A stretch of 64,000 bases of DNA from Acidobacteriaceae bacterium. GTDB taxonomy: Bacteria; Acidobacteriota; Terriglobia; Terriglobales; Acidobacteriaceae. The notes below the pieces were generated by a model. The model searched no databases and was not told the origin of the DNA. It saw only the letters and a program-made list of their open reading frames with translations. Position 1 is the first letter of the stretch. Each line of letters begins with the position of its first letter. Below, one piece after another: positions 46,992 to 48,304 of the stretch. The DNA lies in the NCBI GenBank assembly GCA_003134655.1, contig PLBY01000079.1, positions 1-64,000 of the forward strand. The letters are read 5' to 3'. The translations under genes were made by a program, and so were the position numbers.

Positions 46992-47483
46992 ATGTCAGCT
47001 GTAGCGGATCGTGTGCTATCGATTGCAAAGCCCGAGGCGCCGTCCTCGAACGGCGTTTGGGTGCCACTCGTAGGTGGACTTTGGGTTCTGGCGAACGTCG
47101 GCCTCGCGGCACTTGGGATCTATATCGACTGGCCGATCCTGTGCGCGTTCCTGGCGGGACTGATGAATGGCTCACTCCTGTCGGTGATTGCGGTGGCCAC
47201 GGCGAGCGAGCGACTCCAGGCTGGCACCACCGGACTCCTGGGCGGACTCAGCCTGAGCGCGCTGCGCAGTGACGGCAGCATGGTTTGGAAAGCCATGCAG
47301 TCCGTCCATGGTTTTGTCGACACCTTGTTCAGCGTGTTGGGTATTGAGCTCGACGAGAGAATGCATCATGCCCTCGAGCAGGAAGCTCTCTACATGATCT
47401 GGACGATCGTGTTCGTCGTGCTGGCTTCGCTGGTCGCGGAGTGGGTGCGATCATCCCGGGCGCAGACGGATCGCGAACGCTAG
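46992..47483 (+). CDS. Small membrane protein of unknown function
   Basis: I do not recognise this 163-residue protein. There are two helices in the N-terminal half (about 23-45, VWVPLVGGLWVLANVGLAAL; about 47-68) and one at the C-terminus (about 135-152, MIWTIVFVVLASLVAEWV), with an amphipathic region between. GGAGG lies just before the ATG. Its stop overlaps the stop of the convergent selenoprotein gene by 4 nt. Confidence 0.6.
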   Translation: MSAVADRVLSIAKPEAPSSNGVWVPLVGGLWVLANVGLAALGIYIDWPILCAFLAGLMNGSLLSVIAVATASERLQAGTTGLLGGLSLSALRSDGSMVWKAMQSVHGFVDTLFSVLGIELDERMHHALEQEALYMIWTIVFVVLASLVAEWVRSSRAQTDRER

Positions 47484-48304
47484 CGCAGTTGTTTGGCGGC
47501 CGCCAGCATCTCGTCCGCGCGGGCTCGGACGCGGATATCTTCGGTGAAGTTGCTCCAGCGCACAATCTTGGACGAGTCCACCAGAAACTCGGCTGGCCGT
47601 GCAATGTCGTGCCCATCCGGCCCGCCCCCAGTGTGCAGCAAGTGGTAGCGCCGAATCACCGCGGTATCAGGATCAGAAAGAATCGGGAACGTGTACCCCG
47701 CCTTGTTGGCCAGATCGCGCGACACCTCAGGCGCGTCCACGCTAATCGCGACTGGACGTACGCCAGCCGCCTGAAACTCCGCCAGACGTTTCTCCACACC
47801 TCGTAACTCGAGGTTGCAGAAAGGTCACCAGTAGCCGCGGTAGAAGATCAGTAGTACCGCCTTGGGAGCCTGGGCTTGCGATTGAGATGTAGAAGCGGAC
47901 GCAGCCGGAGCGAGAAGTTGGTCGAGCGATACCGGCTTCCCCGTAGTATCGGAAAGAGTGAAGTCAGGAACCCTCTGCCCGACCTGCGGCGCCACCGTTG
48001 AACTGGGCAACTCGCGAGCTTTGACGAACGCGAACGCGGTGAGTCCGAGGGGAAACAGAGCAATTGCGGTCAGTACAACGCTCAGCACTTTACCGCGATA
48101 GACATGCGCCTGGCCAAACGCTCGCCGCAGTCCGGTGGCAAGAAAGACCAAAGCGAGGACCCCGAACAACACGCTCAGCCAGGGAAGTGCTCCCTGCAAG
48201 GGAGGACTCACAAAGAATGCGACGTTGCAGCCGATAGCTCCGAGGGCAAACAAGAGTCCCCACCAGGGCGCGGTGTTCTTTCGGCGTTCCGTTGCGTCCG
48301 GCAT
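47480..48304 (-). CDS. Membrane-anchored peroxiredoxin-like selenoprotein (in-frame TGA)
   Basis: Read through one TGA (47825-47827), this is a 274-residue protein. Residues ~14-95 form three membrane helices (FALGAIGCNVAFFVSPPL, LSVLFGVLALVFLATGL, VVLTAIALFPLGLTAFAFV). The AhpC/TSA-type thioredoxin fold follows: RVPDFTLSDTTGKPVSLDQL, AVLLIFYRGYW-U-PFCNLELR, then VAISVDAPEVSRDLANKAGY and TFPILSD. The TGA is exactly the first Cys codon of the usual FYRGxWCPFC, so U160-x-x-C163. A hairpin follows 16 nt after the TGA. Conventional annotation would split it into a 159-residue and a ~105-residue protein. Selenocysteine genes lie outside the window, so the call is strong but not proven. Confidence 0.8.
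47798..47827 (-). promoter_or_regulatory. Bacterial SECIS-like hairpin downstream of the UGA
   Basis: Minus-strand reading after TGA: 10 spacer nt, then ACCTCG, loop AGTTA, CGAGGT (6 bp perfect; C-A/T-G pairs extend it around a bulged G). The loop begins 16 nt after the UGA with G at its second position. Bacterial SECIS elements normally have the loop about 16-37 nt from the UGA with G in the first two loop positions. Confidence 0.6.

Follow-up and report, generated by a model that had tools for sequence, protein, structure and literature searches.

What does a TGA encode that stands in the middle of an otherwise open, peroxiredoxin-like reading frame of a soil Acidobacteriaceae bacterium? 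The frame lies in a window of 64,000 nucleotides (the whole stretch of DNA analysed here, positions 1 to 64,000 of contig PLBY01000079.1) and spans 274 amino acids, without any other stop before the final TAG, if the TGA is counted as a residue. The features discussed below are:

48304 to 47480, minus strand: predicted selenoprotein gene that starts with ATG at 48304 and has 274 codons before its TAG, codon 160 being the in-frame TGA
47825..47827, minus strand: TGA that probably encodes selenocysteine (U160) and opens the UxxC motif (homologue codons)
47816..47818, minus strand: C163 codon, second position of UxxC (C in 118/118 tree rows; AhpE alignment)
47799..47813, minus strand: apical stem-loop of a putative bacterial SECIS, 5-bp stem CCUCG/CGAGG, loop AGUUA (pairing, synonymous-codon controls, fold)
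48014..48304, minus strand: predicted N-terminal membrane anchor of three helices, residues 1-97 (hydropathy, Lys/Arg counts, model)
47555..47983, minus strand: AhpC-TSA domain, residues 108-250, peroxiredoxin fold (PF00578, E 5e-28; model)

A peroxiredoxin-like frame continues through the TGA

An earlier note, made from the letters of this DNA, had described a single frame broken by one TGA at the first cysteine of a FYRGxWCPFC motif, with peroxiredoxin-like flanks on both sides. This description is borne out: the frame is on the minus strand, which the note had left unstated, and the motif around residue 160 reads FYRGYW-U-PFC. When a cysteine is put at position 160, the AhpC-TSA family (PF00578) matches across the TGA site at 97.9 bits (cut-off 26), and Redoxin (PF08534) likewise matches across it (E 2e-16). 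The combination of an AhpC-TSA domain with a UxxC motif is that of the Prx-like UxxC selenoproteins (PF00578). The ORF listing does cut the gene at the TGA, into 159 aa ending there and a separate 105-aa frame behind it, as had been foreseen for annotation pipelines; because the relatives share the same in-frame codon, gene finders would split or miss such genes in Acidobacteriota.

The nearest frames of the window encode an ATP-grasp protein, a glpX-type fructose bisphosphatase and a 163-aa product lacking a Pfam match. Around 49 anchor-type loci (flanks mostly of 1.5 kb on either side), we found no partner gene conserved beyond the genus: the recurring families occur in at most 7 of the 49 loci, all of which belong to the window's genus or to its neighbour at 95%. 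Scanning for promoters and terminators returned nothing above shuffles, and the window's four other single-TGA frames with a cysteine three codons off had no redox context by eye.

The TGA is conserved and exchanges with cysteine only

Searching the 397 genomes of the order at a threshold of E 1e-20 gave 46 matches, spread over 40 genomes, and all 44 matches that cover the site carry TGA. The remaining two are fragments, one N-terminal (residues 1-141) and one C-terminal (182-274); neither the G041 gene's N-terminal piece nor L078, a fragment beyond the motif, enters the TGA count. With L022 added from a close-relative scan, and L023 and L024 taken as repeats of L043 and L045 and counted once, 45 rows were read in the order set. 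The TGA is also present in a 95% identical copy from another Acidobacteriaceae assembly (PMUM01000256.1) and in two more named assemblies. A further in-frame stop occurs in two of the 44 order relatives (TAG in L048, TAA in L051).

The earlier note had proposed to align homologues at residue 160, and had regarded homologous frames ending at the same point as evidence against a selenoprotein. The homologues show TGA or a cysteine codon there, and their frames run on past the site. Within the phylum, 68 loci were read from a 396-genome draw: 46 have TGA, 22 have Cys (TGC/TGT) and none has another codon. These loci form a non-random set drawn from the matches listed in that search (28 best matches, two of them repeats, plus 20 without a reported stop and 20 with TGA), and the 46:22 ratio is not a frequency because they were partly picked by stop status. 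Exchange with cysteine alone is what selenocysteine (Sec) predicts. Phyla beyond Acidobacteriota were covered by the close-relative scan, in which all eight named relatives from outside have Cys. An in-frame UGA, a frame kept on both sides of it and cysteine exchange in homologues, the marks of a bacterial selenoprotein, are thus all found at this locus.

In a 118-row tree (a quick method with SH-aLRT support only; L105 and L108, second fetches of L073 and L081, and L027, a near-copy of L026, are absent), the window protein falls into a starred branch of 42 rows, all of them Sec. At least six Sec/Cys changes are needed on this tree, and starred branches force four of these. In a separate group, whose motif is mostly F-x-RSADW-(U/C)-PYC and which has 219-286 residues past the site, Sec members (TGA in L113, L135-L138, L140, L141, L143 and L150) occur side by side with Cys members (L110, L115, L122, L125 and L126), even within one genome (G502: L115 Cys, L138 TGA). 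One relative (G698:C335:4687-5325) was reported with four in-frame TGAs and could represent either a protein with several Sec residues or a decayed copy.

Is the part behind the TGA maintained as protein? In the eight comparisons in which both parts were alignable, the protein sequence of the 114 codons past the TGA was more conserved than the part before it. The dN/dS ratio past the TGA was 0.043-0.092 in eight of nine comparisons (one was not computable), and 0.12-0.23 before it in the six computable ones. By these ratios, strong purifying selection acts on the codons behind the TGA.

A SECIS-type hairpin goes with the TGA

Behind the TGA, the minus strand holds the hairpin CCTCG-AGTTA-CGAGG (47813-47799), whose stem starts 12 nt and whose apical loop starts 16 nt past the TGA, with a G at loop position 2. 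The earlier note had rightly pointed to a hairpin with a G-containing loop, but 16 nt is the distance to the loop rather than to the start of the hairpin. In the accessible part of a 2026 review, the bacterial SECIS model has a loop of 3-9 nt with a G in its first two positions, an upper stem of 4-16 bp, a spacing of 16-37 nt from the UGA and a minimum free energy at or below -7.5 (PMC13188914). The element of the window falls within each of these ranges, its 16-nt spacing being the lower limit of the published model as given there (PMC13188914). For the TGA and the next 42 nt, the fold energy is -19.3 kcal/mol (z -4.6), and none of 200 shuffles was as good.

We compared this hairpin among 42 near relatives, namely 32 order loci (including L022) and ten phylum loci, which together are the rows of the starred branch, with the window among them. 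Each of the 42 sequences can form all five pairs, around a loop that reads AGUUR without exception. At two pairs, both sides differ between relatives, CCUCG/CGAGG in some standing against CUCCG/CGGAG in others (a C-G/U-A exchange). Sliding the partner by 1-3 columns lowers pairing to 32-57%. None of 500 shuffles of the partners attained the observed values for paired share, changed cells or covariation score; pairs changed on both sides (149/500) and pair types (500/500) were not above shuffles. The covariation may reflect few events: the two pairs concerned are neighbours, the changes go together with amino-acid replacements, and their distribution follows the tree. As the hairpin region is coding sequence, synonymous-codon draws served as a control: the 32 order loci form 160/160 pairs, compared with a mean of 110.3 (sd 4.6, maximum 125) in 2000 such draws. 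The leucine codon in the loop is TTA in 23/32 and TTG in 9/32, TTA accounting for 58 of the 1081 leucine codons in those frames. The hairpin is part of the sequence's own minimum-energy fold (54 nt) in only 27/42 near relatives, and 41/42 reach -7.5 kcal/mol.

The order loci were divided into these 32 and 13 shorter relatives by the residues after Sec (SEL/LEL or not). The shorter group (L071, L073-L077, L080-L086) has TGA at the same codon throughout, mostly the same loop AGUU, and one N-terminal hydrophobic segment in 8/13. Its hairpin, mostly CUGCGCG-AGUU-CGCGCAG, lies nine nt farther downstream (83/91 pairs, 9/13 complete), and to go by these two positions, the SECIS has moved within the family. 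In seven farther anchor-type TGA loci (L097-L103), the window hairpin is absent, with 2-4 of its five pairs; a 5-bp stem, CUGCA-5 nt-UGCAG, is formed in all seven, and its loop lies 23 nt past the TGA and reads AGGUU in six.

Both hairpin positions had been selected from viewed folds, and the ten phylum loci of alignment A2 were picked with their sequences already seen. A generic pattern search (uninterrupted stem, loop of 3-9 nt, G in the first two positions, spacing of 16-37 nt; 200 synonymous draws; L105 and L108 left out as second fetches) is free of that choice of position. The mean best stem was 5.38 in the 32 order loci (draws: mean 4.14, maximum 4.72), 6.85 in the 13 shorter relatives (4.48, maximum 6.00) and 6.57 in 44 phylum TGA loci (4.56, maximum 5.16), whereas the 22 phylum Cys loci showed no excess (3.95 in both loci and draws). 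TGA loci exceed the draws and Cys loci do not; SECIS-type hairpins therefore go with TGA rather than with Cys.

The genome encodes the selenocysteine machinery

Can this organism insert Sec at all? The earlier note had suggested a search for selA, selB, selC (tRNA-Sec) and selD, and all four are present in the source genome, a MAG with 5.2% estimated contamination in which the sel genes sit on other contigs than the window. selB scores 367.8 bits (cut-off 242), selA reaches 542 bits across two pieces, and a tRNA-Sec with TCA anticodon is recognised by ARAGORN and Rfam. The selD gene (L039, G000:C49:48759-49679) has an in-frame TGA of its own (KAAG-U-ASK), so the selenophosphate synthetase is here probably itself a selenoprotein. 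A second tRNA-Sec candidate (L015, G000:C25:528-617) passes the Rfam cut-off at 53.8 bits, but because ARAGORN sees no tRNA there, it was rejected and one tRNA-Sec was counted; the sequence could be a decayed copy, an unusual tRNA or part of a foreign contig.

Over the order, selB was matched at E 1e-62 or better in 166/397 genomes (164 over cut-off). It occurs in 38 of the 40 genomes with a match to the window protein and in 128 of the 357 others (Fisher p 9e-14). The two match-bearing genomes without selB (G320 and G365; 75 and 80% complete) have selA.

The same genome harbours two further peroxiredoxin-like genes with an in-frame TGA, L035 (G000:C83:60586-60978) in TGG-U and L038 (G000:C126:178558-179022) in TPG-U. 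Both are candidates for classical TxxU selenoperoxiredoxins.

An N-terminal anchor probably places the domain in the periplasm

The proposed three-helix membrane anchor agrees with hydropathy, which predicts three N-terminal helices for the window protein and for 24 of the 32 order loci (two with an extra weak segment). Two of the other eight show two helices, and six are cut by contig ends, a stop or the choice of start. The structure model puts the helices at residues 12-32, 40-64 and 68-97, with low confidence in the anchor. In the 24 three-helix proteins, 1-5 lysines and arginines precede helix 1, while the first loop has 0-2 and the second 3-7, a pattern that should put the C-terminal domain outside the cytoplasm; this peroxiredoxin-fold domain probably faces the periplasm. 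Of the ten phylum loci of the branch, six have at least three segments, three have two and one (L096) has none; L097-L103 have three in five cases and two in two.

No Cys member of the anchored form was found among the listed order and phylum matches that start at or before query residue 35 and cover the site. The query carried Cys at the site, yet all such listed matches are TGA.

Active site and fold

The predicted structure (mean pLDDT 77, 119 residues at or above 90, low in the anchor) has a peroxiredoxin fold. In structure searches, which covered the Prx domain, its model matched AhpE and Bcp structures with Z 23.4 and an rmsd of 1.7-2.2 (AhpE: 1.7 over 152 aligned residues). The AhpE alignment places U160 on the Thr and C163 on the peroxidatic Cys of the TxxC motif. 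On this basis, the suggestion that Sec replaces a redox cysteine holds in so far as U160 takes the place of the first cysteine of a CxxC; a reading that puts Sec at the peroxidatic position has to be corrected, that position being held by C163. With the peroxidatic place taken by C163, "peroxiredoxin" is the right word for the fold and a candidate label only for the activity.

The classical active-site motif of peroxiredoxins is PxxxT/SxxC. Here, the sequence is RGYWUPFC, with Arg156 at the place of the Pro and Sec160 at that of the Thr. W159 and C163 are found in all 118 tree rows. Arg236, which aligns with the AhpE Arg, is R in 24/32 near order relatives and in 43/89 Sec rows, and arginine is outside the five commonest letters at this position in the 29 Cys rows. 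We infer that the site would be a thioredoxin-like UxxC working through a selenenylsulfide intermediate.

Weighing the explanations

Might the TGA be a sequencing or assembly error, or the nonsense mutation of a pseudogene, with function confined to the first 159 or the last 114 codons? ORF callers do split the frame as such an account would have it, and the extra stops in L048 and L051 mean that single copies may be damaged. It is nonetheless exceedingly improbable, as the same TGA recurs in every site-covering order match, from many assemblies including the named one at 95% identity, and selection acts strongly on what follows it. Hardly more credible is a TGA that serves as a general sense codon (for example TGA = Trp) or is passed by near-cognate readthrough. 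Genetic codes with TGA as a sense codon do exist; against one here stand five relatives (L043, L044, L045, L054 and L058) that use TGA to end their own full-length frames, an exchange with Cys only in 22/22 non-TGA phylum loci, the presence of tRNA-Sec, selA, selB and selD in the genome, and the SECIS-type hairpins that mark TGA and not Cys loci. On the homologue, selection and machinery evidence, we reject pseudogene, sequencing error and code change alike: the conserved frame, the Sec/Cys exchange, the conserved hairpin and the Sec-insertion genes together lead to a selenoprotein, with selenocysteine very probably inserted at the TGA. How the site works is a closer call. C163 could be peroxidatic and U160 resolving, as in a classical peroxidase, instead of U160 acting first in a UxxC thiol-disulfide enzyme. 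Besides the match of C163 with the peroxidatic Cys of AhpE, the Sec of TGGU and TPGU in the genome's TxxU peroxiredoxins is, by eye, spaced like C163; the best structural fits of the domain are AhpE and Bcp, and the AhpE-aligned arginine is kept in most near order relatives. Yet the Pro and Thr of PxxxTxxC are missing, and W-U/C-x-x-C with its invariant Trp is thioredoxin-like. We regard the classical peroxidase as a serious contender, if the less probable of the two.

Our preferred reading, held with high confidence, is that of a real selenoprotein gene in which a hairpin would direct Sec insertion at position 160, its product being by all indications a membrane-anchored UxxC enzyme. SelB carrying Sec-tRNA would bind the hairpin, and Sec would be inserted at residue 160. 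The three N-terminal helices, to go by charge and hydropathy, would tether the protein to the inner membrane, with the domain in the periplasm. The motif suggests that the U160 selenolate may attack a peroxide or a disulfide, that C163 may resolve the product to a selenenylsulfide (Se-S) bridge, and that a periplasmic thiol donor may reduce this bridge. Such a cycle might serve, at the membrane, to protect or mend thiols of the envelope or to clear peroxides.

Relation to known selenoproteins

Prx-like thiol:disulfide oxidoreductases (PF00578, UxxC) are an established selenoprotein family according to the accessible text of the 2026 review (PMC13188914), and the accessible parts of earlier surveys mention 'Prx-like' from the Sargasso Sea (PMC1088965) and 'Prx-like 1' (GOS survey) and 'Prx-like 3' (PMC2398784, PMC1794560), as well as fusions of Prx-like proteins with other domains (PMC2398784). 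By their descriptions in these portions, such proteins share with the window's an AhpC/TSA domain, UxxC, CxxC homologues and a SECIS just past the UGA, but no anchor is mentioned (PMC13188914, PMC1088965, PMC1794560, PMC2398784). Two further types listed in the review have the domain superfamily of the window protein and, like it, Sec first in the motif: the Redoxin family selenoprotein (PF08534, UxxC) and the peroxiredoxin-like family cd02970, which differs in having UxxS instead of UxxC (PMC13188914).

PrxU (NF040737, TxxU) belongs to the same AhpC/TSA superfamily, two TxxU relatives being encoded in the window's own genome, but it has its Sec at the other end of the motif, and the window protein scores 24.5 bits against a cut-off of 270. 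The best NCBIfam match is the SelL-related redox protein NF040769 (E 1e-12), of which the window protein is not a member by this model because it scores 47.7 bits against a cut-off of 120. ResA is a membrane-anchored redoxin with a WCxxC-type motif. It matches the window protein in sequence, but at 43.5 bits against a model cut-off of 170; the window protein differs from it in having three helices and AhpE/Bcp peroxiredoxins as its best structural matches.

For Acidobacteria, the accessible part of a 2006 survey lists three families with four selenoproteins in all (PMC1794560), and that of a 2025 paper gives three selenoprotein genes in the genome of Occallatibacter riparius (Acidobacteriota; PMC12013277). 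The words 'Acidobacteri' and 'transmembrane' were not found in the text of the review that was available (PMC13188914), and a search of titles and abstract starts, with few subscription journals covered, returned no membrane-anchored Prx-like selenoprotein. While Prx-like UxxC selenoproteins are known, the membrane-anchored, probably periplasm-facing form thus appears to be new.

A single Prx-like query finds TGA-bearing relatives in many Acidobacteriota genomes, and 46 such loci were read here. Whether the anchored proteins make up an undescribed Sec-only group across Acidobacteriota, with a peroxiredoxin fold and UxxC facing the periplasm, Sec exported and apparently never replaced by Cys, is in our judgement evenly balanced, as is the view of this group as one branch of a larger, under-annotated Prx-like set whose SECIS moved and changed between branches. 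If true, the selenocysteine of the anchored form would sit outside the cytoplasm and, with no Cys counterpart in our sample, selenium may be indispensable to this form.
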